Shown here: positions 2,328 to 50,535 of the stretch, piece after piece
Numbering within the stretch: the stretch's first letter is position 1
How the letters are laid out: every line of letters starts with the position of its first letter
Source of the DNA: Brucella pecoris
GTDB lineage: Bacteria; Pseudomonadota; Alphaproteobacteria; Rhizobiales; Rhizobiaceae
DNA: 64,000 nucleotides
NCBI RefSeq assembly: GCF_006376675.1
Contig: NZ_VEWK01000001.1
Location: 1 to 64,000 of the forward strand
Direction of reading: 5' to 3'
Made by a program: the position numbers and the translations under genes
Notes under the pieces: model-generated
The model's input: the letters and a program-made list of their open reading frames with translations, nothing else
Databases searched by the model: none
Told to the model about the DNA's origin: nothing

Positions 2328-3071
2328 ATGTCACTGAAAGAAACACCAGTTTTCAAGAGCATCGCGCAGCTTGATCCGGCAGCTTCAAAAAAGGCGGGCC
2401 GACCGATCTACAGCGATATCGAAGTTTGCGAGCTCCATTTCCCGGGCGACAAGCAGCACAAGCCGGTTTTCCCCGCGCACTCGTTCGCTGGATGGGGTGA
2501 AGATGAGTACGGCAATCAGCAGAAGCTCACCTATGCGCTGAAATACAATGACCAGTATCTGCGCTTCAAGGAAGGTCGCGCTCAGGTCGCTGACGGCACG
2601 CCACTTTCCGAACTGCCGTTCCTGACCGAAGCAAAGCGTATGGAACTGAAGGCGCTCAAAATCTACACCGCTGAACAGCTGGCGGGCCTTGATGGTCAGA
2701 ACCTCAAGAACCTCGGCCACGGGGGCCGTGCTCTTAAGGATCAGGCTCAGGCGTTTATCGAAACAGCGACGAAAAGCGCCGGCTCGGTTGCTCTGGCTGA
2801 AGAAAACGCATTTCTCCGGCAGCAGATTGCCGAACTGAAGGCGGATCGCGCTGGAGTTGCAGCTGTAGAACCTGACGACACCACTGAACCCGAACAGGAA
2901 AAGCCAGCGCCCGACGACACAGAGGACGAAGAAGACATTTTCGACCTCATGCCGGATGAAGAACTGAAAGCCTACATTAAGGATAAGTCCGGCGAAGGTG
3001 TGCGCGGCACTCCGAAGCGCGAAACCCTGCTCGCCATGGCTCGCGAGCTCGATCTGGCCGACGAGGGTTAA
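2328..3071 (+). CDS. phage protein with acidic linker and HeH/SAP-like C-terminus
   Basis: A 247-residue protein: a folded N-terminal part, a helical stretch (LAEENAFLRQQIAELKADR) that looks like a short coiled coil, a very acidic linker around residues 180-205, and a C-terminal segment (residues ~208-245) with the look of a small helix-extended-loop-helix nucleic-acid binding unit (LKAYIKDKSGEGVRG). It lies in the head-gene block just before the connector-like gene. Exact function unknown; a DNA-contacting head protein is an inference. Confidence 0.5.
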   Translation: MSLKETPVFKSIAQLDPAASKKAGRPIYSDIEVCELHFPGDKQHKPVFPAHSFAGWGEDEYGNQQKLTYALKYNDQYLRFKEGRAQVADGTPLSELPFLTEAKRMELKALKIYTAEQLAGLDGQNLKNLGHGGRALKDQAQAFIETATKSAGSVALAEENAFLRQQIAELKADRAGVAAVEPDDTTEPEQEKPAPDDTEDEEDIFDLMPDEELKAYIKDKSGEGVRGTPKRETLLAMARELDLADEG

Positions 3072-3074
3072 TCA

Positions 3075-3770
3075 ATGACCGTCAAGGACGCGCTGACAAG
3101 CGCTGCATCCCGCATCATGGGTGTGCGCCCGACTGTCTTTTTTTCCTCAACCAAACCACTTGAGGGCGATCTGACAGAACTCGTTAATGCTGTGGCAAAG
3201 GATATTATTAAATCCCACGATTGGCGCGTCCTGACGAAACTATGCACGTTGACTGGTGACGGCACTAGTGAGGGCTATAGCCTTCCAACCGACTACGACA
3301 GAATGCAGAAAGGCTCTAGCCTGCGATCTGCAACCGCTCCCCTCTACGGTTATCAACCTTGTGTTGATCCCGATGAATGGCTGATGCTGCAAATGCCTTA
3401 TGGCGTCTGTTCTCTTGGGCGCTGGATCACGTTCGGCGGACAGATCCATATCATGCCAAAGCCTTCCCTCGGGCAAGAGATTAAGTTTTTCTACCAAGGA
3501 AATCAGTTTGCAACTGATGAGAACGGCGTTCCAAAGGGAAGCTTTGAAAAGGATAACGATAGCTTCCTGCTGGATGAGGAACTGCTTACGCTCGGACTTG
3601 TTTGGCGCTATCGCCAGCAAAAGCGCATCGACTATACCGACGATCAGGCTTTGTTTGAAAAGCGCTTCAATGAACTCGCAGGCGAAGACAAGGGGGCGCG
3701 GGTTTTCGTAGAGGGCGGTTCGCGCAGGCGCGGTAATGCGTCATTGCCATATTGGGGTGAGCTCGGATGA
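3075..3770 (+). CDS. phage head-tail adaptor / tubular-A-like protein
   Basis: A 231-residue protein with the pattern of podovirus adaptor proteins: N-terminal helix, an ESHDW-type helix (KDIIKSHDWRVL), a beta-rich centre (YSLPTDYDRM; GGQIHIMPKP), and a C-terminal helical part containing WRYRQQKRIDY. Such proteins form a ring between portal and tail nozzle. The stop overlaps the start of the next gene (ATGA), so the two are translationally coupled. The family call is by pattern and order. Confidence 0.65.
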   Translation: MTVKDALTSAASRIMGVRPTVFFSSTKPLEGDLTELVNAVAKDIIKSHDWRVLTKLCTLTGDGTSEGYSLPTDYDRMQKGSSLRSATAPLYGYQPCVDPDEWLMLQMPYGVCSLGRWITFGGQIHIMPKPSLGQEIKFFYQGNQFATDENGVPKGSFEKDNDSFLLDEELLTLGLVWRYRQQKRIDYTDDQALFEKRFNELAGEDKGARVFVEGGSRRRGNASLPYWGELG

Positions 3771-5449
3771 GGTGGCCTCGTTCTCCGCGCAAGCCGCGCA
3801 TGTCTCAGCCGAAGCGCTACACTTCCCCAATCGGCGGATGGGTGGCTAATAGAAACGTTGCCCAGGCTCAAGCACCGGGATTGCCGCAAGCTGCGGCTAT
3901 TCTCGACAATTTCTTTCCCTATGCCAGCACCGTCATCATGCGGCGTGGGAGTGAATTGCATGCCACTCTTGGAGATGGATCGCAGTCCGTCCGGTCTCTT
4001 TTCAAATACGTGAGTGGAGGAAATCAGCGCCTATTTGGTGCAACAGACACTCAGGTTTTCGATATCACGCTTGTGCAAAGCCCTTACAGTTGGCGTATCG
4101 GCACCAGCACCGATGACGATATCAAAACCGATCAAAACGACCTTTTGGGAGAGCTTTCGACTAAAGGTCTGGATGTTCTAAACAATCAGAAGAATGGTGA
4201 CTGGTCAGTCGTGCAGTTTGCTACCGCAGGCGGCGGCATATTCCTTCGCGGGGTAAATGGCGAAGATAAGCCATTCGTCTATGACGGGAATGCTTTTTCC
4301 TCCGATCCGGCGCTCACCATGCCAGCAACAGAAACCGTTGTGACACCTGAGGACATGTCTTTCGTCTGGGCTTACAAGAACCGCCTGTTCTTTGTTGAGG
4401 GCGATAGTCTGAATGCCTGGTATCTGCCGGTTGATCAAATCGGCGGTGAACTGAAGAAATTCCCGCTCGGTGGTATCTTCAACGAAGGCGGCTCGCTATT
4501 GTTTGGAGCCTTCTGGTCTCTTGACAGTGGCTCGTCTGGCGGACTTTCGGAACAATGCGTTTTTGTCAGCACAGAGGGCGAAGTTGCGGTCTTTCAAGGT
4601 GCTAACCCGAGCGATGCGAATGACTGGAGCAAGGTAGGCGTTTATCGGATCGGCAAGCCTCTGGGAAAGAATGCGTGTATCCGGGCGGGTGGTGACATCA
4701 TTATCGCTACGACAACCGGCTTTGTGCCTTTGTCACAGGCTATTCAGCGTGACGTTGCCGCATTATCCCCTGCAACGGTCTCCTATCCAATTGAAGACGC
4801 ATGGAATGAAGCATGTCTGCTTCGCGGTAATGCTGGATGGCATGCAATGCTCTGGGCTGAGCGCCAAATGGTAATTGTCACCCCGCCCCATTTGAACGGT
4901 TCATCCCCTGTCATGTTTGTTGCCAATGCATTGACGGGCAAGTGGTGCCGCTTCACCGGTTGGACTTCGAACTGCATGGAAGTGTTTCAAGGCCAGCTAT
5001 ATTTCGGCTCTTTGGAAGGTGAAGTCATCAAGGCGAATATTGGCGGGAGTGACAAGGGCAATACCTACACGGCGGCTTATCTGCCTCTTTTTGAGGACTA
5101 TGGACAGCCTGCACTCATGAAGCTTGCAAAGCTTGTCCGGTTTACAATCCGGGCCTCCGCTCAACTCAACATGGAGGTTAAGCTGCACGCTGAATACGAC
5201 AAGGAACTTCCACCTGCACCCAACTCTACTGCAGTCACATCTACTCAGGAATGGGGAACGGCCATCTGGGGTGCCAGCACATGGGGAGCGGCATCACAAG
5301 CCATCCTGAACAACGAATGGCAGGCGATAGGCGGCGGCGGATATGTCTTAGGACCATCTTGTCAGGTCACAAGCGGATATATCGTTCCGCTTGATGCTGA
5401 AATCATGAGCACCGATCTAACTTTCGAAATGACGGACGTGCCAGCATGA
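3767..5449 (+). CDS. phage tail nozzle / tubular-B-like protein
   Basis: A 560-residue, beta-rich protein beginning with a basic stretch and then a GGWVANRN-type motif common at the N-terminus of podovirus stabilisation or nozzle proteins (PIGGWVANRNVAQ). Repeated aromatic/glycine blades occur along its length (SYSWRIGT-like, MSFVWAYKNRLFFVEG, GKWCRFTGW), fitting a propeller-like tail tube component. It overlaps the preceding adaptor gene by four bases and the following GNAT-like gene by four bases, so the three probably form one translational unit. Confidence 0.6.
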   Translation: MRWPRSPRKPRMSQPKRYTSPIGGWVANRNVAQAQAPGLPQAAAILDNFFPYASTVIMRRGSELHATLGDGSQSVRSLFKYVSGGNQRLFGATDTQVFDITLVQSPYSWRIGTSTDDDIKTDQNDLLGELSTKGLDVLNNQKNGDWSVVQFATAGGGIFLRGVNGEDKPFVYDGNAFSSDPALTMPATETVVTPEDMSFVWAYKNRLFFVEGDSLNAWYLPVDQIGGELKKFPLGGIFNEGGSLLFGAFWSLDSGSSGGLSEQCVFVSTEGEVAVFQGANPSDANDWSKVGVYRIGKPLGKNACIRAGGDIIIATTTGFVPLSQAIQRDVAALSPATVSYPIEDAWNEACLLRGNAGWHAMLWAERQMVIVTPPHLNGSSPVMFVANALTGKWCRFTGWTSNCMEVFQGQLYFGSLEGEVIKANIGGSDKGNTYTAAYLPLFEDYGQPALMKLAKLVRFTIRASAQLNMEVKLHAEYDKELPPAPNSTAVTSTQEWGTAIWGASTWGAASQAILNNEWQAIGGGGYVLGPSCQVTSGYIVPLDAEIMSTDLTFEMTDVPA

Positions 5450-5910
5450 TTGAAACTGCGCTTTTTGGCTGGCAGCCGGTACGCGGTTCACATTCAATAA
5501 TTGGAGAATTTGTCTGCAAGATCGTTTTCGACGATCCCTATGCTCTCGATAAATACGCGGCCATGGGGTTCTTCGAAGACGGTGAGCTCATCGCGGGAGT
5601 TCTCTTTCACAACTGGCATCCGGAAAGCGGCGTCATGGAAATGACGGCGGGCTCAAGTTCGAAACGATGGCTTAACCGGCGCACACTTCAGCAGATCATG
5701 TCTCTCGTCTTTGACGGCTTTAAAAATCAGCTTGTCGTCATGCGGGTATCAGATCGCAATCAAAACATGATCCGTATCGCCAGAGCCTACGGATTTTCCG
5801 AGACCTTCATTCCCCGCCTTCGCGGTCGCGATGAGGGCGAGTTCATTTTCACTTTGACCGATGACGATTGGCGCAACGGTCGCTTTTTCAAAGCATCAAT
5901 CGACAGGTAG
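5446..5910 (+). CDS. GNAT-like acetyltransferase-fold protein in the tail operon
   Basis: A 154-residue protein with the order of a GNAT fold: a beta hairpin (ELIAGVLFHNW, MEMTAGS), a central helix, and VVMRVSDRNQNMIRIARAYGF, which corresponds to the core strand and helix before the acyl-CoA site, ending in FIPRLRGRDEGEFIFTLTDDDW. It overlaps the upstream tail gene (ATGA) and is six bases from the next, so it is a late gene. Similar genes sit in the tail modules of BPP-1-like and other podoviruses; whether it acetylates something or is only structural is unknown. Confidence 0.6.
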   Translation: MIETALFGWQPVRGSHSIIGEFVCKIVFDDPYALDKYAAMGFFEDGELIAGVLFHNWHPESGVMEMTAGSSSKRWLNRRTLQQIMSLVFDGFKNQLVVMRVSDRNQNMIRIARAYGFSETFIPRLRGRDEGEFIFTLTDDDWRNGRFFKASIDR

Positions 5911-5915
5911 ATAAA

Positions 5916-6899
5916 ATGGGCAAGAAACAGCCAGAGGCACCAGATCCGAAGGAAACAGCAAGCGCACAGGCAGCTGCCAACCGCTCGACTGCGATCACGC
6001 AGCAAGAGCTGAACATGGTGAACCAGAACAACCCATGGGGCAGCATCAGCTATGACCAGACCGGAACACGGAAGCATTTCGATGAAATGAGCGGCAAGTG
6101 GGTTGAAACTCCGACCTTTACCCAGACTACGACCCTCAGTCCTGAACAGCAGTCTATTTTCAATCAGACGCAGGCAGCGCAGGGAAATCTTGCTGGGATA
6201 GCCGTCGATCAGTCATCGAAAATCCGTGACCTGCTCAACAAGCCATTTGAGTTCAACAATCAGGATGCTGCCAATTGGGCCTATGACCTTGGGGCGCAGC
6301 GCCTTGATCCTCGTTTTGCACAGGACGAAGAAAAACTGCGCACTACGCTCAAAAACAAAGGCATTCAGGAAGGTTCTGACGCTTGGAACTCCGAAATGTC
6401 ACGCATGACGCAGTCTAAGAACGATGCATACAACCAGCTTATGTTGAACGGGCGTCAGTCGGCTTTCAGCGAAGCATTAGCGCAGCGAAACCAGCCTCTA
6501 AACGAAATCATTGGACTGATGAGCGGTTCGCAAATCCAGAACCCTGCACAAATGTCAGGCGCAACACCACAATCAAGCGTCGGCGGCGTCGATTACACGG
6601 GTCTGGTCAACCAGAAGTATCAGGCCGACATGGCGAACTATCAATCGAAGATGGGTGGTTTGTTCGGGCTGGGTTCAGCCGCAATGGGAATGTTCAGCTT
6701 CTCTGACAAGCGTCTGAAAACCGATATCGAGCGTGTGGGTAAAACGGACGAAGGCACGCCAATTTATACCTATCGGTATAAGGACGGCGGCCCTACTCAG
6801 ATGGGTGTCATGGCTCAGGACGTTGAGAAAAAGCAGCCAGAGGCGGTTGCTAAGCACCCGAGCGGCTTCCGCATGGTTGATTATGGAAAGGTGAGGTAA
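5916..6899 (+). CDS. phage virion protein with C-terminal S74-like chaperone segment
   Basis: A 327-residue protein. The ATG at 5916 is chosen because an earlier in-frame start lies inside the preceding gene. The N-terminal two thirds is Gln/Asn/Ala-rich and helical; a Gly/Met hydrophobic patch (GLFGLGSAAMGMF) precedes a C-terminal block SDKRLKTDIERVG...TYRYKDGG...MGVMAQDVE. That block matches the start of intramolecular chaperone (peptidase S74) domains, which trimerise fibres and cut themselves off. Here it is short and ends the protein. A role in the virion is inferred from place in the operon. Confidence 0.6.
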   Translation: MGKKQPEAPDPKETASAQAAANRSTAITQQELNMVNQNNPWGSISYDQTGTRKHFDEMSGKWVETPTFTQTTTLSPEQQSIFNQTQAAQGNLAGIAVDQSSKIRDLLNKPFEFNNQDAANWAYDLGAQRLDPRFAQDEEKLRTTLKNKGIQEGSDAWNSEMSRMTQSKNDAYNQLMLNGRQSAFSEALAQRNQPLNEIIGLMSGSQIQNPAQMSGATPQSSVGGVDYTGLVNQKYQADMANYQSKMGGLFGLGSAAMGMFSFSDKRLKTDIERVGKTDEGTPIYTYRYKDGGPTQMGVMAQDVEKKQPEAVAKHPSGFRMVDYGKVR

Positions 6900-38481: not shown

Positions 38482-38670
38482 CCGCGTCATACTCTGGGTC
38501 TGTTTCGCGCATGTTTCCTTATGCTCCAGATCTGGTCGATTGATGTAATTGCTGCCTTGGTTTGTCTTTTTTCAGCTTCTATCCATTGTTTTTATTATGT
38601 TTTTTCAATCACCTTCGGAAAGGTAAGGCCATTTCGCTTTGTTTGATTTGTCTCTTTTAAAGGGAAGATA
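38482..38670. other. candidate zone for one end of the Tn7-like element
   Basis: AT-rich 189-base stretch between the last core-type repeat and the tniQ terminator. It has loosely repeated GTTTGTCTTTT / GATTTGTCTCTTTT motifs at ~38560 and ~38644 that might be TnsB-type sites. No certain terminal repeat or target duplication was found. Confidence 0.25.
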
Positions 38671-38719: not shown

Positions 38720-40552
38720 TCACCGTCCCAAAGCGAAGGCTCCTCGCTTTTCAAGATCGGACAAATTGTAATAACTAGCCACGAATTTATTATCGTCGAA
38801 AAGTGGCGAGATGCCGATATCTGCCAATCGCTTCTTCATCCCAACTCGGTTCACACCGACCTTCTGACAGAAATCTACAAGAGAAATGAACTTGGATTTG
38901 AATTCTTGAAGCGAGTCTTCGTTAATCAATCGAGCCATTTTTGATGACCGCTTGTAATCCTTCTCCTTGATATAACCTCGCCTGAGAAGCTGCGATAGCG
39001 TGACATCCGATGTACCGAGTAAGTCGAGAGCCTGCTCGAAAGTTACGAAATTTTCTTGCATGTCAGACAGGCTCTGGAGTCGAACACGTTGAACTTCGAG
39101 CTTACTCACCCGTAGCCTTGTAAGCAGGCCGCCTTGGCCAGTAACGACACGAGCGTCTACAGAACCCTCGATAATCAGTTGGAGAATGTTTTCAAAAGCC
39201 ATCGTAAAAGCGTGGGCGAGTTCCATTAGCGAACCCCACTCGTCTTCGTCATGTTCGACCGATTCCGCGTTTGCGAGCAACGCGGATTGAAAGCTGTCCA
39301 ATTCCGCTTGAGGAATACGCAAATATCCCCTTTCGTTCTCTCGTTCTTCAACCTGGCCTACAAACCCGACTTTCACCAGCGTCCGGAACTGTTCTTCATC
39401 CACGCCGAGAATTTCTGCGGCAGCCGTAGATGTAAGGGTTTCGCGAGCGGCTTCTAAAATTGGACGGGCCCTCTCAGCATCAAAATAGATAGCCGAGTCA
39501 TGCTGGTTGATGCGGTCGGTTAGTCCATGCGAGACAAGCAGGGTCTTAATGCGCTTTTTATGAATACCGAAGTCTGTGTGAGCAGAGTTCACGCAATAGA
39601 CATAGCGGTGATCGACGGGATTGATAAAGGTCATGCCTGGACCAAATGGCATGTTCTTTTCGGCAATGTCTTGGAACAACGACACGAGAGGCGTGTATGC
39701 TGGCTTCAGCTTGTTGCGGCGAAGCCAATCGACAAGCTGACCGAAGAACTGCTCGACGAAACGAACCATCGGCCTTTTCTGCTCGATGGTTTCAATAATA
39801 ATGCGCTCCAGTTCAGCCTGCCCTTCGCAGATAAGCCTAAATCCCCATTCACGCTGGTCCGTCGCCTCGTCCTGAAAGTGGGTGAGCTTATGAATCGCAA
39901 TGAACTTTCCCATATAACCAGAAAGCTCAGCAACGATATGTGCGTCCAATGTGTCGACCAAATCGTCGGCTTCGGCGCGTTTGAAAATGCGGTCACGCAG
40001 AAACCTGTCCAGCATTGGAGCCGAGCTCCGCACATCATCGTGCGCCTGATCGCGGATTGTCTGGACATTTTGCTCGACGAACGTAGCAAAGTCGTCGCGC
40101 TGGTCAAAAGAGGTTACAAAGTGCTCGACCAACTTACGCCCATGCTTTGGACATCCTTCGATACCCCGACAGCTCCACCACGAGCGTGCATAAGGTCGCG
40201 AGATTGCCCGACCGATGCCTGTTTCCATGTCATTGAGAACGCAATGCGGACAGTAGCGAAGCATCTTTCCCGGACGCATTTCTTTATTGAAAATAGCGTG
40301 GCCAAGCTTCCAGTTGGAACCCGGATGTTGATGGACGATGCTTGCATTCGCTAAGCGTTCAATGGAAATCCCTGAAAGCTCCGAGATTTCCGCAAGCGCG
40401 TCATGATCTCCACGAACAATAGCTTCTCGGCTCGTGTGTGTGAAACCGAGCAATGATTGCAAGGAATCATAGCTATTCGCGCGCGCCAGGCGCGACACGA
40501 GGCTGATCGGACTTTCGTCTTCATGGAAGGGCAGGGTAACCGGCAATGTCAT
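38720..40552 (-). CDS. tniQ: TniQ/TnsD-family target-selection protein
   Basis: 610 residues. The N-terminal TniQ domain begins LPFHEDESPISLVSRLARAN and holds zinc ligands CPHC (101-104) and CRGIEGCPKH (128-137). The C-terminal ~350 residues contain several helix-turn-helix-like segments (TSTAAAEILGVDEEQFRTL; FVTFEQALDLLGTSDVTLSQLL; LVDFCQKVGVNRVGMKKRL), as in TnsD proteins that read a specific attachment site. The length points to sequence-specific targeting, not CRISPR guidance. It overlaps tnsC by four bases and is the last gene of the operon. Confidence 0.85.
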   Translation of the reverse strand: MTLPVTLPFHEDESPISLVSRLARANSYDSLQSLLGFTHTSREAIVRGDHDALAEISELSGISIERLANASIVHQHPGSNWKLGHAIFNKEMRPGKMLRYCPHCVLNDMETGIGRAISRPYARSWWSCRGIEGCPKHGRKLVEHFVTSFDQRDDFATFVEQNVQTIRDQAHDDVRSSAPMLDRFLRDRIFKRAEADDLVDTLDAHIVAELSGYMGKFIAIHKLTHFQDEATDQREWGFRLICEGQAELERIIIETIEQKRPMVRFVEQFFGQLVDWLRRNKLKPAYTPLVSLFQDIAEKNMPFGPGMTFINPVDHRYVYCVNSAHTDFGIHKKRIKTLLVSHGLTDRINQHDSAIYFDAERARPILEAARETLTSTAAAEILGVDEEQFRTLVKVGFVGQVEERENERGYLRIPQAELDSFQSALLANAESVEHDEDEWGSLMELAHAFTMAFENILQLIIEGSVDARVVTGQGGLLTRLRVSKLEVQRVRLQSLSDMQENFVTFEQALDLLGTSDVTLSQLLRRGYIKEKDYKRSSKMARLINEDSLQEFKSKFISLVDFCQKVGVNRVGMKKRLADIGISPLFDDNKFVASYYNLSDLEKRGAFALGR

Positions 40553-41538
40553 TTCTTGGTCCTTCCTTTTTTCTTGGGCTCGTTAGACGCAGACAGATCG
40601 GCGAGCACATGTTCAGGCGAGATTTCTGACCAACGTGCGGCTGAGAAGATATTGTGTTCGGGTAGGCAACCGCTCGATTCTTGATAGACGAATGCGAATG
40701 CACGATTTTCGAGCACCGTCCTGTCGTTTTTAACGGTCAGGATGCAAGCGGCACGGATAGTTTCAACAATCTTGCCTAGCCCGCCTTGAGCCGAGTGACA
40801 CAGTCGTCCCACAAAGTCTGCTTCTCGCAGTTCATCCGCGATCTTCAGGCCACACATCTGTTCGGCAATTTTTGTCATGGCATCGTTGATGAATTGCTGA
40901 TCATCAGTAGGGCTCTGCTCAACATAGCGGATGACCTTGCTACGGTTCGCGAGCTGGAGATCATTTGTCAGCAATTTGGCAAGATCCGGCACACCCGAAA
41001 AGATCGTATGCAAAGGCCAGTCAGGAATCTGCATAAGGCTCTTCAGCCCGTCCTGGACTTCGGTAATCACCTTCTGACTATCGTGACGAATGAGGTGTTG
41101 AGCCTCATCGACGTGCAGATAGAGAATACCTCTCGCTTTCAACTGAGTTTTCACAGCCGAAAACAGCTGGGTCTCAGTCTGCTTGGAGTTTGCTGGAAGC
41201 CCCATCGCAGACAACAGCGTGATCGCAAACCCCTTCATGGTTGATGAGCTTGATGCCTCGATACTGAGAAAAGGCGTGATGGTTTCGCCAAACTCATTTT
41301 CTCGCGGCTGAAACTCTGCGATGCGACCACAGTGGTGTTTCAATGAATGGGATTTGCCGCTCCCGGATTCACCAATTACAAATAATGCAGTCTGCCGAGA
41401 ACCGCCGCCACCGTTCAGGTGATCATCAACGTTATCAACCATTCCTTGCAGCATATTGTGCAATTTTCTGTCGCGCGGACTTTCGAGATATGTGCTGTAG
41501 ATATGTCTTTTGAGTTCTTTCAATTCGTCAGTGTTCAT
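40549..41538 (-). CDS. tnsC: TnsC/TniB-type AAA+ transposition regulator
   Basis: 329 residues. Walker A GESGSGKS (56-63), Walker B LYLHVDEAQHL (139-149), sensor-type helix later (LPNS/HTIFSGVPDLAKLL). TnsC forms ATP-dependent rings on target DNA, bridges TniQ to the transposase and gives target immunity. The C-terminus is basic (NEPKKKGRTKK), which may contact DNA. It starts 14 bases after tnsB and overlaps tniQ. Confidence 0.9.
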   Translation of the reverse strand: MNTDELKELKRHIYSTYLESPRDRKLHNMLQGMVDNVDDHLNGGGGSRQTALFVIGESGSGKSHSLKHHCGRIAEFQPRENEFGETITPFLSIEASSSSTMKGFAITLLSAMGLPANSKQTETQLFSAVKTQLKARGILYLHVDEAQHLIRHDSQKVITEVQDGLKSLMQIPDWPLHTIFSGVPDLAKLLTNDLQLANRSKVIRYVEQSPTDDQQFINDAMTKIAEQMCGLKIADELREADFVGRLCHSAQGGLGKIVETIRAACILTVKNDRTVLENRAFAFVYQESSGCLPEHNIFSAARWSEISPEHVLADLSASNEPKKKGRTKK

Positions 41539-41552
41539 TGGTCCCGCCCTTC

Positions 41553-43769
41553 TTAAAATTCGTCGTAATAGCCGCTCCTTGAAACAGGAGGTTCTGTTTG
41601 AAGGTCGGTATCTGTATTGTTCGCCCTGGTTTCCAGCCGCTCGCTTTTCGCAGCCCGTTTTGCAGCTGCGATCTCCTTCTTCTGGACCGTTTGGTACTCG
41701 ACAAAGGCCGATTCATCGGAGAGCTTCAGATCCCCTGGAAGAGAAGCGAGCGCTTCTAGTCCCTGCATCTGGTCATCCGGCTTTGCGATCCAACTGCCAC
41801 ACAATTCGGCTTCGAGCCTTGCCAGTGCATTGCTATCTAATGACCGCGCACCCAGCTTTGCCCTGATCATCGCGGCGTCACCGGAGGTCCGCAATTTATT
41901 GATCGCCCGGTACATAGCGGCGAGACCAGACTCGCTTTCCTTGGCATTAGCCAGACGAAGCTGCTGCCGTGCTACGATCCATTCCTCAAGCGAAACGTTA
42001 TCGTCCAGTCCGATTTGGTTTTCGACTGAGAACCAGCCCTTATCCTTGCCTGCATAGACGGCAATGGAACGCAGATTCGCTGGATCGCACTTGATCTCAA
42101 AATCCGTCTGACCATGTTTCAGGCGAAGGCGCGTTAGCTCATCGTTCGAATAAGGAATGCCCATGAAAGACACGCCATAGGACGAAATCCGTCGCGAAAC
42201 CTTCTCCCCAAAGATGTGAAGCATTTCTTCTTCGTCAGGCGCGACGTCGATTGGATATCGGGATGTCGCCTTCACCCAAGCATTGTGTGGTGTACCATCC
42301 GCGAGCCCTGCATGCTTCTTGTTGTGATAGATATCGCAGATCGCGTAGAGGAAGAACTTGATCAGCTCATCACTCTGCAGGCTTAGGCGTTCCTCCGGAT
42401 TGTAGTCTCCTTTCTCGTGAATAGAACCGAAGGTTCGGCCATCAAAATGGTGGGCCACCATCGGACCAATGGTCTTGAAAAGCCGTTCGATAAATGGTCT
42501 GGCTTGTGGTTCACCCGCTGGTGGTCGGGTAAACGCAATGCGCGCATTCCTCAAAACTTCCTGCGTCCGCTGGCTGACGAACTCCTTGCCGTTATCGCAA
42601 TAGATCTGGCGAGGACGAAGGCGTCCAATCCAGGGCGTTTCGCAACCCAACGCAGTGGAAATATGCGTTTTGTCGGACATGATCATTCTGATTGCTTCGA
42701 CGGCATTGGCCGCATTCGGATTGGTGCTCGCCTTAAAAGCCAACACATAGCGAGTGGACACGTCGATGGCGGCAACGAACCAAATGCGAGTGCTTCCGAT
42801 CTGATTACGATAGCTTTCTGGTAACAGGGACCACATCCCCGTTTCTACGAACAAGGACATCAATTCCACATTCCAGAAATCCATCTCGATCCGGTCACCC
42901 GGCACCTCGAAGTGGAAGCTCCGCTTTACGGAAGAAAGTCGTCTCTTGGCGTACGCCTCCCCATGTCGTCCAGCGACCTTCGCGTACTCATCAAAACCAT
43001 CAATGATGCTCTCGAATTTTGTGCGCGAAACTTTTTTGATCTGAGAATCCGGTGATGAGTTCATCTCAAAAAGCTTGGCCAGATAATCCTGATAAACCTG
43101 TGCCTTCGATTTCTTCCTGTTATCCATGTACCGAAGAGCTTCGCTATGAGCGAATGCAATCGATTCCGGATCAGCGGAACGATAATAGATTCCAGGACCA
43201 TGGTGACGTTGAACTAATCCGAGGACGTCGCCTCCGCATCCGTGGTACTTGGTGTAATCTCTCCAGAAAGTCTTGACCGATGGGGCGCGATAGAACGTGA
43301 GTTCCATCGGCCTGTCTGCGCGACTGGCGCTTGGGAGAAGGTTTGACTGGATCTCGGCGTGCCAAGTATTCAGAAGACGCTGGAGCTTCTCATTATTCCA
43401 ACGTTTCCGCCCATATTCCGGGAATTCCGCGTCATAACGGTTGATCAGCTTTTCACGAACGAGAGCCAGCTTCTGAACCTTCTCAGGGAAATCAGAGAAC
43501 TTTTTATCGCCGAAGATAATGCGTAGCTTCTGTTGCTCTGGTTCCTGATATCCATACCGAACCGAGGCGCGACCAGCAGAAATTTCATTATAGAGCTCCT
43601 GATGGCCGACAACGACTTCGTGGCTGTCGTCTTCCCTCTTGATGTGCCATCCCTCGTCGCCTCTGCAGACTGGAATCCAATGGGCGTTCTTATAGCTAAG
43701 CCTGTCGACCTTGCGCATGTTCACCAAAGAGCGCTGAAATGTGGCTGGCTGTGCAAAATAGCTGTTCAT
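41553..43769 (-). CDS. tnsB: TnsB/TniA-type DDE transposase
   Basis: 738 residues with a perfect ribosome site (AAAGGAGG, five bases before ATG). N-terminal DNA-binding helices (~1-280), then an RNase H-like integrase core: D297 in RIEMDFWNVELM, D392 in YCDNGKEFVSQ, E428 in ARPFIERLFKTIG. A beta-barrel domain follows (VSFMGIPYSNDEL, FEIKCDPANLRSIAVYAG) and a C-terminal helical tail that in Tn7 binds TnsC. It cuts and joins the 3' ends of the element. All three catalytic residues are present. Confidence 0.95.
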   Translation of the reverse strand: MNSYFAQPATFQRSLVNMRKVDRLSYKNAHWIPVCRGDEGWHIKREDDSHEVVVGHQELYNEISAGRASVRYGYQEPEQQKLRIIFGDKKFSDFPEKVQKLALVREKLINRYDAEFPEYGRKRWNNEKLQRLLNTWHAEIQSNLLPSASRADRPMELTFYRAPSVKTFWRDYTKYHGCGGDVLGLVQRHHGPGIYYRSADPESIAFAHSEALRYMDNRKKSKAQVYQDYLAKLFEMNSSPDSQIKKVSRTKFESIIDGFDEYAKVAGRHGEAYAKRRLSSVKRSFHFEVPGDRIEMDFWNVELMSLFVETGMWSLLPESYRNQIGSTRIWFVAAIDVSTRYVLAFKASTNPNAANAVEAIRMIMSDKTHISTALGCETPWIGRLRPRQIYCDNGKEFVSQRTQEVLRNARIAFTRPPAGEPQARPFIERLFKTIGPMVAHHFDGRTFGSIHEKGDYNPEERLSLQSDELIKFFLYAICDIYHNKKHAGLADGTPHNAWVKATSRYPIDVAPDEEEMLHIFGEKVSRRISSYGVSFMGIPYSNDELTRLRLKHGQTDFEIKCDPANLRSIAVYAGKDKGWFSVENQIGLDDNVSLEEWIVARQQLRLANAKESESGLAAMYRAINKLRTSGDAAMIRAKLGARSLDSNALARLEAELCGSWIAKPDDQMQGLEALASLPGDLKLSDESAFVEYQTVQKKEIAAAKRAAKSERLETRANNTDTDLQTEPPVSRSGYYDEF

Positions 43770-43808: not shown

Positions 43809-44667
43809 CTAGCGAACCACAGTCATCCAACTGAGTTCGTTGATCTGTCCCGGATTCACGGGCCTGATAATTTCGTGGTCGATAAGCGACCAAGCCGCAG
43901 TCCAGCGGCTTGAACGGCTCGTGCAGTTCTTGAACAATTGCCCAAACCGGAAGTGGCCCGGCCAATCCTTGATCGCTTTGACCAGCGCCAGATACTCGCT
44001 CTCATTGTAATGAGAACGGGCGCGTAGGATGTTCATGGCGTTCAAAAATGCATCGATGTTAGCCTCGACTTCGGTGAGAAGGCTTAGCTTGATGTCGGGG
44101 TGTAGAGCTTCAATCTCACCCAGTGTCCCGACGCATTCCATGCCTGCCTGTTGAATGCGGTCCAGCACATCTTGCATGGCCGCCTTTTTCTTGAACGGCT
44201 TAACTGCAATGGCCAGTTGCACTCCGCTTTTCAGCACCACGTAATAGTCAAAGATATGCTTTCGTCGGACGCCAAAAGCGTCGACGTAGCCCATTACCGG
44301 GTACTGTGAATGAAGTTCCTGAACGTCTCGTCGCGCCTGAATTAATGTCGAAACCCGGTGCTCAAGTTCACTTTCATGGAAGACAACTGTAACTTCATGA
44401 ACGGTGGAACCACGAGCGGTTTTGGCATTCTTCTGCTGAGGTTCACGTGTTGCAAATCCAGGGCAGGGTTCTTTCCAAAACTTGATGGAAGAGCCGCCAC
44501 TTTCGGATGAGGTTGCCTTATATTTCCAAGCCCCCGACCTTGGTCAGGCCGTGACAATCTTGGTCAATGAGCTGCTGCAGATCACGTGAAGCATCAGCTT
44601 CGGCGATGAAACCGAGACCAGCACGTTGAAGACTGACATTTCGAGATACTTGACGAGAAAAATTCAT
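43809..44667 (-). pseudogene. tnsA: TnsA-type endonuclease with a one-base frameshift
   Basis: An ATG at 44667 with ribosome site AGGGGACAG starts a frame that stops at 44518. The rest of the protein continues in the next frame to 43809 and has no usable start before 44294. Removing one base in the C5 run at 44531-44535 joins them into a 285-residue protein, close to the 273 residues of Tn7 TnsA. It then carries FHESELEHRVSTLIQARRDV with the catalytic glutamate, HIFDYYVVL (D140) and LAIAVKPFKKK (K156), the restriction-enzyme-like core that cuts the 5' ends. As written it is broken, unless ribosomes slip at the G5 run. Alone, the downstream frame would lack the glutamate. Confidence 0.85.
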
Positions 44668-45026
44668 AGCTGTCCCCTGAAAGCTTCTGGTGGCCAGGAT
44701 GGCCGAAAGTCTGTCAAATGGGGAACACAAGGATAAGCCGATGCAATTGCGCAACGGGTATTAAACCGACGCCAATACTAGGCCTTGCTTGTGCTCCACT
44801 GGGTAGTCGGTTTGCGTATCATGGTGATATTATCCTTTTGCTTGAGCGTTTAAGCTCAGGGCGCTGCATATGGCAGCATTTCAATTTGATTGCAATATCT
44901 AAATTTGAGTTAACCATATAATAATTTTATCGGCTCTATTGGGATGAGTATCAGACTTTTCGTTGTGAGGTGCACCTTAACGGTTCGGTATCAGCGATGG
45001 GAAACAACTTTTCCAATGGAGGTTAT
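44668..45026. other. 359-base divergent region between tnsA and next gene
   Basis: Holds the promoter of the tns operon and, rightward, that of the gene at 45027. It has an inverted pair AAACCGAC (44763-44770) / GTCGGTTT (44816-44823). In Tn7 the element end lies here, but I cannot point to terminal repeats. Confidence 0.4.
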
Positions 45027-45890
45027 ATGGCTGGTCGGATCATGGAAGCGGATGTATTCGGTACGCTGGTGCACGCTACCGCATACAACGGAGGACCTGC
45101 TCATTGTCCGTATTGCGGCATTCGCCTTGTTCATATGCCCCCTTATCAAAGGCACAATGCTGCGGTTGGCGCTTTCTACCGGCGTCGGGCGGGAGTTTCG
45201 CATGGCGTTTGCAAATACAATGAGAGCCAGCGAGTTAACCGCATCGTTCGATTTTCCACTGAATTCTCCAACCAGCAACCTATCGCGTTGGGTAATGACG
45301 GAAAGGCTAAATTTCTTCTGCAGGTAATCGGAGGAATCCTGCGATTAGAGAAATCTGGCTTACTCCCAGAAGCTGTACGTGACGCTGAAGGAAACGTAGT
45401 GATCAGTCCACAGAGAGTGAGATCGCAGTCGTTACGCACAGCGAAAGCCATTCTGGGGCTAGTTAGCAGAATTGAGAATACTGCGGAGCTTAGCGAATTG
45501 ATCAATTTGGACCATAAAGGAAGGACAATTCCGTGGCGAGATTTCTATTTTCCATCTGACAGAAATCTGCGGCTTTATCGTCAGGCAAATAGAGGAATTG
45601 AATTTCCAATTGCGATGGAGATAACCGTCAAAAAAGTTTTTCCAAAGGAAAAAAAAGCGAACTATCTTATTAATTGTCATGGAGAACATATCGACGAAAA
45701 TGGAAGTATGGTCTATTTCGCCCCCACGATCTGGGTAAGCGATCCGGTCCTAGCGGCGCTATTCGTAGAAAGCGGAACATACCTAATTTTTGCAGCGGTA
45801 AACAATATTTCGTCAAATGGGGCTTTCAGAAATTTAAATATAACAGTTAATTCTAGGCATCAAGTATGTCGCGTTCGAACAGAACACTGA
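45027..45890 (+). CDS. unknown protein with N-terminal zinc-ribbon-like motif
   Basis: 287 residues from ATG 45027, which has GGAGG six bases upstream; an in-frame ATG at 44970 has none. N-terminal AHCPYCGIRLVHMP and a later HGVCKYN could bind zinc. The centre is helical (FLLQVIGGILRLEKSGLL; SLRTAKAILGLVSRIEN); the C-terminal half is beta-rich (IAMEITVKKVFPKEKKANYLI; TIWVSDPVLAALFVESGTYL). Its 3' end overlaps the opposing gene by 38 bases. No family recognised; cargo of the mobile region. Confidence 0.6.
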   Translation: MAGRIMEADVFGTLVHATAYNGGPAHCPYCGIRLVHMPPYQRHNAAVGAFYRRRAGVSHGVCKYNESQRVNRIVRFSTEFSNQQPIALGNDGKAKFLLQVIGGILRLEKSGLLPEAVRDAEGNVVISPQRVRSQSLRTAKAILGLVSRIENTAELSELINLDHKGRTIPWRDFYFPSDRNLRLYRQANRGIEFPIAMEITVKKVFPKEKKANYLINCHGEHIDENGSMVYFAPTIWVSDPVLAALFVESGTYLIFAAVNNISSNGAFRNLNITVNSRHQVCRVRTEH

Positions 45891-46209
45891 CCGGTGTAAC
45901 TATCGGTTTAGAAATCATCGTGAACGATAAATTATTATCTATTAGTGACTCTAAGCCGCCGGGAAGATTAACGCCATAGTCAATATCTCCGTTATCAAAA
46001 ACTCTTATTATATGAACATTCCTGTGATCTACATTTAAAATTTCGCCATCGGTAAGTTCAACTACTGCTCTATCGCAGTAGGTGCTTAATAGATTAACTT
46101 TTTCGGCGATCTGGGCAGCAAGATGTGCGTCCCTATAGGGACCAATATCGAAATAACACTCGAATTGTCCTTTTTTCCAACGTGTATCTATGCTATATGC
46201 TAAAAACAT
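45853..46209 (-). CDS. hypothetical protein overlapping opposing gene
   Basis: About 118 residues from ATG 46209 (an upstream GTG/ATG at 46221 is possible). Beta-rich and acidic (AVVELTDGEILNVDHRNVHIIRVFDNGDIDYG). AT-rich codons set it apart from the core genes. No family recognised. Confidence 0.5.
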   Translation of the reverse strand: MFLAYSIDTRWKKGQFECYFDIGPYRDAHLAAQIAEKVNLLSTYCDRAVVELTDGEILNVDHRNVHIIRVFDNGDIDYGVNLPGGLESLIDNNLSFTMISKPIVTPVSVLFERDILDA

Positions 46210-46221
46210 TACCAAAACCAA

Positions 46222-46560: not shown

Positions 46561-48423
46561 CTATTCGCGCAGGAATATCCTTTTCAGTTGCCTTTCGTTG
46601 AGTGCCGAATAACGTTCAAGCTTCGCGGCAATTGCGGAAACGGCTTTTGCTTTTTTCTCGATGATGTCGACCGCTCTGTCAAACTGAGTTTGAAGGATTT
46701 CATTCACACGCTGTTCGAGGTGGGAATTTTGACGTAACAGGTTGTCGTCGCACAAATTCATTGTAGCTAATAAAGCTAGACCTTTGCCAAAGCCGAACGA
46801 GGCTTCCATTCGAATTGCAATTCGGGTCGCTTCTGCTAGATCAGAATGAGATCCGCCGCCGCTGCCATCACTGATCTCCCCAAACACAACCTTCTCGGCG
46901 GCTAACCCACCCAAAAGTGTGCAAATCTGAGCATCGTACGCGGTTCTGGTTGTGAGAATTCTATCTGCACGAATTTGCATCAATGTGCCACCAAGGTTGC
47001 GATCACTGTCTCGGAAGGTTCGCCTCAGATGAACCGAAACTGGTTTGATGCCTGTCACATCAAACAATTCATCTGCAACGACAGCGTGCCCGGCTTCGTG
47101 AATGGCTGTTCGACGGATGTCTTGAATACATACCGGGCGCGGAGAAGGAATATTGATGGCAAGGTCTGACGCACTTAGAGGGGCTTTCCTCGCTCGTGCA
47201 CGGCTCCGTGCTTCTCGCACCAGTCGGGCAATGTCTGCACCAGACGCACCTTCAAGCCTAACCGCGATTTCAGAAATGTCTTCCCCTGGCAATGCGTCTC
47301 GCAAATGGTATTTGAGGATTTGCTCCCTTCCGACTGCATCGGGGAGGGGGATGTGGACATGCCGTTCAATTCTTCCAGAACGAATGATCGCCGGGTCAAT
47401 TGCATTAATATCGTTGGTCGCTGCAACTACGACGACACCTTCTCTACCATCCAGCCCATCCAGGCACTGCAAAAATCCATTGATAACCTGCCGCGCGTAA
47501 TTGGAGTTTCTTCCAGAAAGCTGGGATCGTGTTCCGAAACTGTCAACTTCGTCGACAAACAAGATGCATGGCGCTTGCCGTTTCGCCTGCTCAAATGCAC
47601 GAAGCATCGCTTTGAGGAGGTCGTCTAAGCTACCTTTGGCCTGCCATTGGGCTAGAGAGTGCGCAAACAAGGGGACTCGGCACGTTCCAGCTAATGCGCG
47701 AGCAAAAAGCGTTTTGCCTACACCTGGAGGGCCACAGAGTAACACGCCGCGATCAATATCCTCCCAGTCCAATTCTCGCTTGGCGAAAAGAGCAAGATCT
47801 TCTGCGAGCATTTTTCCCCAAGACGCTGCTTCCCCATAGCCTGCGATATTGTCGAGGTTGATCTCGCTTTTTGTGCAGATCGCTTTTGATCCTCTGGTCA
47901 CGCGATCAAGCTTGCGTTGAACGTCCTGATCGCTCCATGATTGACAGATCATCGAAGCCAGGATGCGTAACGAGAATGGGGCAGGGACAGGCAGATCGGA
48001 AAATCGAGGCGGAGTTCGAAGACTTTCTTTCGCAATCGATTCACACAGGGAGCCATCGAGTTTCATTTCGATGATATCGTCAGCGGAGTCCAATACTTGT
48101 TGTGGTAAGGAAGTTACGTGCGGTGCGAAATAGACCGTCTGCTTGTATGTGACATGGTCATCACCGAAATCAAAATGATCTCGCTTTTGGGCGGTTAACT
48201 GGATGACGCTTCGCTGTGATGGCCGTTTCGAATTGTAATAGTCCAACCGACCAAGGGCCTTCTCAAAGAGCTCCAAGTCATCTGGATGTTCACATGTGAT
48301 AACTAGGTCGAACACTCGGCCCGCGAGCAAATCATGAAGACCGCGCCTTCGGATTTGCCGAGTAATGTGCGCCACCGCAAGGCGCAAAGCCAGGCCTTCT
48401 GGCGTCTGTTGAAAATTCTGCAT
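46561..48423 (-). CDS. soluble FtsH-like AAA+ zinc metalloprotease
   Basis: 620 residues. N-terminal ~190 residues are of unknown fold and have no membrane segments, unlike FtsH. AAA module: Walker A GPPGVGKT (231-238), Walker B ILFVDEVDS, a pore-like stretch, sensor TND (337-339), arginine fingers in RSGRIERHV. Protease module: HEAGH (442-446) and third ligand D528 in GGGSHSDLAEAT, with LLGGLAAEKVVFGE as in FtsH. All catalytic residues are intact, so it should unfold and degrade proteins in the cytoplasm. It is the last gene of a leftward three-gene set with the genes at 48519 and 48900. Substrate unknown. Confidence 0.85.
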   Translation of the reverse strand: MQNFQQTPEGLALRLAVAHITRQIRRRGLHDLLAGRVFDLVITCEHPDDLELFEKALGRLDYYNSKRPSQRSVIQLTAQKRDHFDFGDDHVTYKQTVYFAPHVTSLPQQVLDSADDIIEMKLDGSLCESIAKESLRTPPRFSDLPVPAPFSLRILASMICQSWSDQDVQRKLDRVTRGSKAICTKSEINLDNIAGYGEAASWGKMLAEDLALFAKRELDWEDIDRGVLLCGPPGVGKTLFARALAGTCRVPLFAHSLAQWQAKGSLDDLLKAMLRAFEQAKRQAPCILFVDEVDSFGTRSQLSGRNSNYARQVINGFLQCLDGLDGREGVVVVAATNDINAIDPAIIRSGRIERHVHIPLPDAVGREQILKYHLRDALPGEDISEIAVRLEGASGADIARLVREARSRARARKAPLSASDLAINIPSPRPVCIQDIRRTAIHEAGHAVVADELFDVTGIKPVSVHLRRTFRDSDRNLGGTLMQIRADRILTTRTAYDAQICTLLGGLAAEKVVFGEISDGSGGGSHSDLAEATRIAIRMEASFGFGKGLALLATMNLCDDNLLRQNSHLEQRVNEILQTQFDRAVDIIEKKAKAVSAIAAKLERYSALNERQLKRIFLRE

Positions 48424-48518
48424 TCTGTTTTCTCACAAGGTTTCACAGTATTGAAAGATGGAGATCGGCAGTTGCAGTGCGATATTCGAAACATTGTCAT
48501 GGGCGTTGCCTCTAAAAA

Positions 48519-48833
48519 TTATCGCAGGCCTCTGACTTTGGCGGGCTTACCAAGTCGATAAAATCGCGAATACGTACGCGCAAAGTGCAGTTGCGGATCG
48601 ACATAAAACAGTTCGCTGGTCGTAATCAGCCTGCGGCTACCCAGTTTCGGATGCTCTAGAACCATTCCCTCCAGGCAAGGCAAGGCGCGGGTCGTTCGAA
48701 CCCAATCGTTAAGAAGCGGGCTGTTATCCAGAAGATTAAGGTCAGGTTGTTTCCCCTCACGTAAAAGCTTGAGATCGTTGACCAATTTGTCGAGCGTACT
48801 GATCGTTTCAGTTAAATAATTCAGATTGTTCAT
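48519..48833 (-). CDS. small hypothetical protein upstream of FtsH-like protease
   Basis: 104 residues, starting with a helical segment (LTETISTLDKLVNDLKLLREG) and then TRALPCLEGMVLEHPKLGSRRLITTSELFYVDP and a basic C-terminus. GAGG lies before the ATG. Placed 95 bases upstream of the protease gene, same strand. It could be an adaptor or substrate, but this is only from position. Confidence 0.55.
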   Translation of the reverse strand: MNNLNYLTETISTLDKLVNDLKLLREGKQPDLNLLDNSPLLNDWVRTTRALPCLEGMVLEHPKLGSRRLITTSELFYVDPQLHFARTYSRFYRLGKPAKVRGLR

Positions 48834-48899
48834 AGGTAAGATTCCTCATTATCGGGCGCGAAAACGCCGATTTGCATCATTCAGGTTCGTGCAGGTGAA

Positions 48900-49496
48900 T
48901 TAGGCTCGGGAAACTCGGGTTTCTGGGCTTATTCTCTCAGTGAGATCGAAGCTGATCTCGCCGGAAAAATACAGGGTCGCAATGGTCGACATCGGATCGG
49001 CGGTTCCGCGTACCAATTGGATACAATATTTGAGCGGAAGTGAGCCGTCCTCATCGAGGGCAGTCAGTAAGCGTAGGCGATCAGCAAGTGAAACCGTCGA
49101 TCTGAGCGCATAGGGCAACAGATCGACCGCATTCGCAATGACTTCAGCTTTATCGTCGTGCTTGTAACTGACGCAGTCGTAGTGCCAGCCATCAGTCTCG
49201 GCGGCTTTGATTACCCAATCTGGCAGTGATGTCGCGTCCACGAGATAATCACCGTCATTTCGTTGAATTGCGAAATCAGGAACATGATAACCGTCGCCAA
49301 ATCGCAGCAATACAGGCAAACAGGCCCAGGCATGCACATTGGGATCTAGGTCAAATAGGCATGCCAGATTGCGTGCTTGTTGCGAACGGAAAAGGGGTTC
49401 GCCATGGCACTTCAGAACCTGCGACGGTGGGAATTTATAAGCAGACGCGTTTAGTCGGACGTCTGCGAGAATACGGTCGGTAATGGATTGGAACAT
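48900..49496 (-). CDS. unknown protein with restriction-enzyme-like core pattern
   Basis: 198 residues. The stretch GDGYHVPDFAIQRNDGDYLVDATSLPDW recalls the PD-(D/E)XK fold pattern of TnsA-like and other nucleases (PDF strand, then a strand ending in an acidic residue), but the usual lysine is not evident, so activity is doubtful. First gene of the set with 48519 and the FtsH-like protease. Ribosome site GAGGAAC precedes the ATG. Function unknown. Confidence 0.55.
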   Translation of the reverse strand: MFQSITDRILADVRLNASAYKFPPSQVLKCHGEPLFRSQQARNLACLFDLDPNVHAWACLPVLLRFGDGYHVPDFAIQRNDGDYLVDATSLPDWVIKAAETDGWHYDCVSYKHDDKAEVIANAVDLLPYALRSTVSLADRLRLLTALDEDGSLPLKYCIQLVRGTADPMSTIATLYFSGEISFDLTERISPETRVSRA

Positions 49497-49587
49497 TGAA
49501 AAGAGTTCCTCTGATCGCGACGGCTAAATGTCAGCCGTCAATGAACAACTGGTTCGGCAATCAGATGAAACGTATTCGAAGCACGCA

Positions 49588-49621
49588 GCTAACATCGCGC
49601 TCTGCAGAGCGCGATGTTAGC
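49588..49621. repeat. perfect 34-bp palindrome
   Basis: Arms GCTAACATCGCGCTC and GAGCGCGATGTTAGC around TGCA. It lies between the PIN-domain gene and the three-gene protease set. Without a T tract it is not a classic terminator; it may act as one or bind a dimeric protein. Confidence 0.6.
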
Positions 49622-49682
49622 TTCGGGGAGGGGTTGAGCGCGTGTTTCATACGAAGAACATAACAGGAACAAACTGCGAGAG

Positions 49683-50198
49683 TCAAGCCTTCACGTTTGG
49701 ATTAAAATGGCCCACATGCCACGTATCCGTTATCGGATTGCATAAGCCAGGAAGTTTGAACCATTCGTGGATTTGCAAGAAATCGCTAACATTCGCCGTC
49801 GCGATGGGAATTCCATACCGTATGGAAGCTGCTGCGATCTGAAGGTCTTGTCCCAGCTTGGGTTTCTTTGAGTTGGGGTCAGGGATCCACAGCGATTTCA
49901 AGGCAGGGACAGAAAGCATTCGACCAATTATCCGGGCAGTCTTAGCATCGTGATCCAAACACATAAGGTCACTAGCGAGCAGTTGCTCAAGCCATTCCTC
50001 AAGTGCATTTGCGCGAGAGGAGCCGCAAGACCGCAGATTTTCAATGCCTTTCTGGATTTCGATGACCGTTGAAATCGAAATGGCGAAATAAATATCCGGA
50101 AATGTCTTTACCCATGTGATAAGTTCGGTTGGCGGATTCTTGTAAGCAAATTGACTTAGGATACATGTATCTAGAAGCAGTCGCTCATGCGTGTTCAT
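49683..50198 (-). CDS. PIN-domain (VapC-type) ribonuclease toxin
   Basis: About 171 residues from ATG 50198. Four acidic residues of the PIN active site are visible: D in LLLDTCILS, E in STVIEIQKGI, D in LGQDLQIAAASI, D in IATANVSDFLQI. This FitB/VapC subtype cuts RNA, often tRNA, when not held by its antitoxin. No antitoxin gene lies just upstream on the same strand; the small gene on the other strand at 50329 is the nearest candidate. Confidence 0.8.
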   Translation of the reverse strand: MNTHERLLLDTCILSQFAYKNPPTELITWVKTFPDIYFAISISTVIEIQKGIENLRSCGSSRANALEEWLEQLLASDLMCLDHDAKTARIIGRMLSVPALKSLWIPDPNSKKPKLGQDLQIAAASIRYGIPIATANVSDFLQIHEWFKLPGLCNPITDTWHVGHFNPNVKA

Positions 50199-50328
50199 AC
50201 TGCACTCGCAAGCTTGATTAGCTGGATATTTTCGTCGAAGCAATTGACAAGAATTTGGTAAAATAAGGATTAGTAAACCGAACGGTGGCTCGTACAGCTG
50301 CCGTTATCAAACATTGGATAGCGTCTAG

Positions 50329-50535
50329 ATGAAGACTGGAAAGATTTGGACGATTGATGAGTTTATTTCAGATACGAGCAATGTTTTGTCTTCTGCGGCT
50401 GTAAATGGGCCGCAGTTTTTAGTGGCGAATGGTAAAACTTATAGAATAGAAGCCGTCGAAGACGCTGAAGCTGATAAGGTCAGAGATATACTGAGCGACG
50501 GTGGTCCTTTGGAGGACGGCGACAGACTGGATTGA
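50329..50535 (+). CDS. small Phd-like protein, possible antitoxin
   Basis: 68 residues, acidic. The layout TIDEFISDTSNVLSSAAVNGPQFLVANGKTYRI recalls Phd/YefM antitoxins (helix, then a hairpin with GP.....NG). It is divergent from the PIN gene with 130 bases between the starts. The acidic C-terminus (DGGPLEDGDRLD) could mask a toxin. The pairing is unproven. Confidence 0.4.
   Translation: MKTGKIWTIDEFISDTSNVLSSAAVNGPQFLVANGKTYRIEAVEDAEADKVRDILSDGGPLEDGDRLD

Follow-up and report, generated by a model that had tools for sequence, protein, structure and literature searches.

Zinc-metalloproteases of family M41, such as FtsH and the i-AAA and m-AAA enzymes, combine an AAA domain with an M41 peptidase domain. 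We compare these and other described systems with a cassette of three genes at positions 46561-49496 of a 64,000-nucleotide stretch of Brucella pecoris DNA (positions 1 to 64,000 of contig NZ_VEWK01000001.1, labelled C1; the whole stretch is called the window). Its largest gene encodes a protease that shares the AAA plus M41 architecture and the HEAGH motif with the FtsH group, but differs from it in having no membrane helices, a variable N-terminal domain of about 180 residues and a location on a mobile element, a Tn7-like transposon. The ClpX unfoldase, which acts on MuA, is host-encoded, belongs to a different AAA clade and has a separate peptidase, whereas the protease described here is element-encoded with the peptidase fused; the parallel with ClpX on MuA or on the transpososomes of CRISPR-associated transposons (CAST), that of an AAA+ unfoldase tied to DDE transposition, is functional only. 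ClpX is the functional precedent for such a link (PMC12326709; PMC12150760; both in excerpt). We give a probability of roughly 40% to the reading that Tn7-like elements carry the cassette as an accessory module, in which ClpX-like remodelling or degradation of the transpososome would proceed via a TnsA-derived adaptor. This reading is favoured because the cassette contains a TnsA relative and occupies the slot beside tnsA. The three genes are:

46561-48423, minus strand: soluble AAA+/M41 zinc-metalloprotease of 620 residues (Pfam, conservation, AlphaFold, hydropathy, domain identities)
48519-48833, minus strand: DUF6634 protein of 104 residues (Pfam PF20339, 7.8e-8)
48900-49496, minus strand: TnsA-like protein of 198 residues, catalytic Glu and Lys positions lost (alignment, hhalign, Foldseek, VIA-align; NCBIfam below cut-off)

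The original prediction, made from the letters of the DNA, described a soluble FtsH-like protease without membrane segments and with an unusual N-terminal domain of about 190 residues, preceded by two small genes on the same strand; all of this was recovered, the small genes being the open reading frames (ORFs) at 48519-48833 and 48900-49496. Pfam matched the 620-residue protein to AAA (5.7e-31) and Peptidase_M41 (4e-22), and the layout is a variable N-terminal domain (residues ~1-180), AAA (190-425) and M41 (430-605). The key Walker A and B residues, the H-E-x-G-H motif (HEAGH in the window), D528 and two downstream arginines are invariant across 79 aligned proteases, that of the window included; a stretch W-Q-x-x-G stands at what we take to be the place of the FtsH pore loop. 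The peak hydropathy over 19 residues was 1.08 for residues 1-200 and 1.33 for the entire protease, versus 2.33-2.73 in five housekeeping FtsH proteins, and no membrane helix was found by this measure over the entire protein. The AlphaFold model had a predicted local distance difference test score (pLDDT) of 85.0. FtsH chains were the top structural matches in VIA-align, spanning residues ~180-620, and a few matches to p97, Cdc48, Rix7 and NVL covered residues 12-426 of the model; a degenerate AAA domain at the N-terminus is at most conceivable. The mean identity of relatives to the window protease was 23% in the N-terminal domain, 58% in AAA and 40% in M41, and the N-terminal domain is thus the variable part. 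The score against the FtsH equivalog family (NCBIfam TIGR01241) was 237 bits, well under the cut-off of 600 bits, and the closest named full-length relatives carry Brucella/Ochrobactrum names. That the protease is a housekeeping FtsH copy was ruled out: the genome's FtsH sits elsewhere (C2:53776-55056) and is 36% identical to the cassette protease. FtsH2 of PACGI-1/TLPQC-1 is also a horizontally acquired M41 protease, but it possesses transmembrane helices and is able to form hetero-oligomers with core FtsH (PMC6629908, in excerpt).

The family of the 198-residue protein matched TnsA in hhalign (E 2.9e-12), the top Foldseek match of the protein was a TnsABCD transpososome, and VIA-align likewise matched the predicted structure to a TnsA-type fold. 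The match to NCBIfam NF033179 fell under the cut-off, and the TnsA-like profile gave nothing significant against PDB sequences (best E 0.31). A nuclease-like N-terminal domain and a winged-helix C-terminal domain are predicted. At the catalytic positions, which we assume from the residues of Tn7 TnsA, the Asp is retained and the Glu and Lys are lost in 17/17 sequences. As far as alignment and models tell, the protein is a TnsA relative with a degenerate active site: it shares the predicted two-domain fold and profile similarity with the TnsA of Tn7-like transposons, and differs by the lost Glu and Lys and by being encoded besides a separate tnsA. The nuclease-fold-like pattern noticed earlier thus stood as regards the fold, which the structure prediction then proposed gave as TnsA-type, but not as an intact active site. 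The gene was ruled out as the element's own tnsA, since a separate tnsA precedes tnsB.

A Tn7-like element of 42.3 kb (C1:38544-80863) encloses the cassette, with tnsA, tnsB, tnsC and tniQ following in that order downstream of the cassette:

43812-44471, minus strand: the element's own TnsA (alignment; frame open over 43812-44543)
41553-43769, minus strand: TnsB transposase, DDE residues present (D297, D392 and E428, invariant in 14 aligned TnsB)
40549-41538, minus strand: TnsC, TniB-type AAA (Pfam)
38720-40552, minus strand: TniQ (Pfam)
38544-38566, plus strand: TniQ-side end of the element, flanked by ATTGA at 38539-38543 (comparison with another genome, G003)

The two ends of the element form an inverted match of 19/22 with the 5-bp duplication ATTGA on both sides, the partner end being at C1:80863, beyond the window; among 300 other TGT starts, the highest match for a partner with exact duplication was 15/22. 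The ends and the target duplication bear out the earlier claim that mobile DNA carries the cassette. A placement of the cassette outside the element, with an attachment site at the 3' end of the protease gene, was dropped after the ends were located, as was an L end at 21.4 kb, which had the wrong orientation. For the G003 element, the stretch searched did not reveal the far end. In a further genome (G006) a related element at 420178-458798 has ATAAC on both sides, and its cassette copy is frame-broken in that assembly. The far-side flanks of the window and G006 elements (C1:80864 onward and G006:C2:458799 onward) both show GAACATTTCC no more than a few bases away from the junction, which suggests a shared specific target site. 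The tnsA frame has no ATG, GTG or TTG before 44294, yet homology extends to 44471; an ORF at 44518-44754 upstream of tnsA shares 26 bases with the tnsA frame, and the arrangement seems to be alike in G003 (L134); this may be a programmed frameshift or an unusual start. Two genes between the protease gene and tnsA (44970-45890, plus strand; 45853-46221, minus strand) do not match Pfam.

A second protease/DUF6634 pair is present on another contig of the same genome (C58), in a different Tn7-like element of 27.06 kb, with ends of different sequence (19/22 inverted, CGTTT duplicated) and a TnsB that is 27% identical to that of the window element. The identity between the two copies is 94% for the protease, 94% for DUF6634, 62% for the TnsA-like protein and 75% for a PIN-domain protein encoded next to the cassette. 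Two cassettes are near-identical to the window in protease/DUF6634 (94/94 and 92/93%) and five others have diverged (40-71% and 58-61%, respectively); the TnsA-like identity is 62% in the former and 62-77% or more in the latter. On these figures, the protease and DUF6634 genes look like a unit exchanged separately from the TnsA-like gene. A relic adjoining the C58 element (L082, ~3055-6802) has the same kind of ends; it contains part of a TnsA-like gene as well as genes that resemble an arsenic cluster.

Profile searches were made in 397 Hyphomicrobiales genomes, with up to 8 TnsA-like, 9 DUF6634, 3 protease and 3 TnsB candidates scored per genome, so that the counts are lower bounds. The protease profile gave at least 137 matches at E <= 1e-85, of which 69 were judged soluble by score band and N-terminal coverage; 68 loci were analysed (G294:C121 was left out of the counts), five of which (G187:C7, G187:C13, G379, G292 and G384:C7) match the profile solely from position 126 or beyond. 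TnsA-like matches occurred in at least 14 and DUF6634 matches in at least 38 of the genomes. With linkage taken as a distance of up to 10 kb, tns genes were found at 23/68 soluble-protease loci and at 0/12 housekeeping ftsH loci used as controls; in 18 of the 23 the protease gene lies 0.5-3.2 kb upstream of tnsA or tnsB on the same strand. Upstream placement alone is expected, because the cargo of the window and C58 elements sits on the tnsA side anyway; the signal is the adjacency and shared strand with tnsA. Within 3 kb of the protease, DUF6634 was present at 24 loci, TnsA-like genes at 13, phosphoesterase genes at 8 and PIN genes at 4, and none of these, nor tns genes, was found near the 12 controls. 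A more sensitive look at the ORF directly upstream found the TnsA-like protein in 13/21 hand-picked loci, mostly tns-linked and some represented in the TnsA-like profile. The order and strand of the PIN, TnsA-like, DUF6634 and protease genes are retained, with very unequal divergence, in several related genomes (L031, L034, L035 and L038; L034 and L035 are nearly one locus in two genomes). The co-conservation that the original prediction had proposed to check is therefore real, as a recurring set in related genomes and across the 68 loci. A TnsB-led survey gave at least 42 TnsB places in 337 genomes, of which 13 were profile-building sequences, all chosen for nearness to the protease; for at least 8 of the 29 others, coordinates already known place a soluble protease no more than 10 kb away. 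On plasmids, the TnsA-like gene directly precedes the protease in 13/16 records (two lack it, one was undetermined). Plasmid pB32-2 of Bosea sp. F3-2 (L004) combines protease, phosphoesterase and DUF6634 genes with tnsABC and tniQ.

Two side observations concern the same neighbourhoods. Between the protease gene and tnsA, L147, L148, L080 and L159 encode a roughly 145-residue protein (141-167 residues at three of the loci) whose D-N-S motif is similar to a portion of a transposase core (hhalign probability only 3.7%), possibly a transposase-core remnant. DUF6634 and metallophosphoesterase genes occur as a pair, with no protease in the stretch, in L130 and L133 (contigs C13 and C8 of this genome, G000), L088, L093, L095, L104 and L106.

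In Tn7-like elements, the slot beside tnsA is often taken by regulators and target selectors. The protease is found in two Tn7-like elements of different lineage and repeatedly just upstream of tnsA elsewhere, and a TnsA relative without Glu and Lys, together with a protease beside tnsA in several unrelated elements, speaks for transposition control no less than for phage defence. For transposition control, the protease would work as a cytosolic ring that unfolds or degrades Tn7-type transposition complexes; the degenerate TnsA-like protein would be an adaptor or decoy that binds such complexes, contacting TnsB, TnsC or the transposon ends, and DUF6634 a second specificity or regulatory subunit. 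The outcome may be a ClpX-like clearing of the post-transposition complex or a throttling of the element itself and its competitors. Several observations complicate this reading: 45/68 soluble-protease loci have no tns gene within 10 kb; across 22 elements, TnsB distances show almost no correlation with protease distances; several Rhizobium plasmids have the protease followed by a phosphoesterase gene amid defence-type genes; and no tns or TnsA-like genes were found in the flanks of the 20 virus-classed loci scanned, out of 69 with a protease relative (the weaker of which share the AAA domain only). In those 20 flanks a phosphoesterase gene lies within 1 kb of the protease in 12 and a DUF6634 gene in one, and integrase-like genes near virus-classed loci gave weak matches, below cut-off. 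Strict co-evolution of protease and TnsB is unsupported; the uncorrelated distances imply that the module moves between elements.

Defence against phages or plasmids is a tentative but serious contender, with the TnsA-like protein, DUF6634 or the phosphoesterase sensing foreign DNA or complexes and the protease acting as effector or switch. It would fit the relatives on plasmids and virus-classed contigs, a protease beside a cyclic-oligonucleotide-based anti-phage signalling system (CBASS) on a Rhizobium plasmid, others among methylase, nuclease and protease genes or near TIR and SIR2 genes, the far greater variability of the N-terminal domain than of the catalytic part, and the occurrence of the module in elements with unrelated TnsB; it leaves the tnsA-proximal, same-strand position in 18/23 tns-linked loci unexplained. 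IetAS, whose second component is an S8 protease, is the nearest defence system: PADLOC (2023 library) matched the protease to IetA (E 1.4e-24) on account of a related AAA domain, but only over residues 225-410, and no S8 partner was seen beside the cassette. On the other cassette proteins PADLOC gave only a weak Cyclase match (0.041, TnsA-like protein). For IetA, PMC10924106 (in excerpt) reports an FtsH-like extracellular domain, and the defence literature searched, including the available parts of PMC13092281 and PMC10924106, showed no M41 defence protease. Ordinary protein quality control, an extra AAA+ protease for stress tolerance, is unlikely, although mobile ftsH xenologues such as that of PACGI-1/TLPQC-1 are known (PMC6629908, in excerpt) and the cargo of the element includes genes for chromate (ChrA, ChrB) and nickel (NicO) transport; the protease has no membrane anchor, and the genes that recur with it encode TnsA-like, DUF6634 and phosphoesterase proteins.

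A toxin-antitoxin or element-maintenance function, with the PIN protein as toxin and the protease removing the antitoxin or the toxin itself, seems improbable. The features in this part of the window are:

49683-50243, minus strand: PIN-domain protein, VapC-like, 186 residues, a loosely linked partner (synteny; Pfam and NCBIfam below cut-offs)
50329-50535, plus strand: small ORF adjoining the PIN gene
49584-49625, no strand: near-perfect palindrome of 42 bp between the PIN and TnsA-like genes, a candidate operator or terminator

The PIN match in Pfam was 17.1 bits against a cut-off of 23.6, and that in NCBIfam was likewise below cut-off. The four-gene order retained in L031, L034, L035 and L038 speaks for a link, as does the frequency of PIN ribonucleases in Tn7 cargo (PMC8649781, in excerpt). 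However, only 4/68 loci have a PIN gene no more than 3 kb away; in L032 it is parted from the cassette by other genes and in L036 it lies at a distance of 4.6 kb, and its divergence is independent of that of the other three genes. The earlier idea that the protease degrades the neighbouring toxin consequently found little support.

No soluble M41 protease of Tn7-like elements was described in the literature searched by title and start of abstract, supplements lying outside its scope. Nor is one mentioned in the available parts of PMC8649781 (Tn7 cargo, where the word protease occurs 0 times), PMC10293859 (Tn7 target selectors), PMC10910872 (CRISPR clustering), PMC13092281 (DefensePredictor), PMC10924106 (defensome) and PMC9371665 (ShCAST structure). 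Were the cassette a defence module, M41 proteases would form a class of effectors not found described in the defence literature searched. Tn7-like transposons serve as programmable DNA-insertion tools, one of which is limited by its dependence on ClpX, whose hypothesised task is to remove the product complex (PMC12326709, in excerpt). Should transposition control be correct, an element-encoded unfoldase/protease with a TnsA-derived adaptor would supply this clearing step in a natural way. Alternatively, transposons would police each other through proteolysis. The fullest form of this idea, which we regard as doubtful, is a transposon family with a cytosolic AAA+ protease dedicated to it, which a retired TnsA paralogue directs at transposition complexes; the module would be swapped among unrelated Tn7-like elements and slotted beside tnsA, so that the protease of one element may dismantle, license or censor the jump of another.
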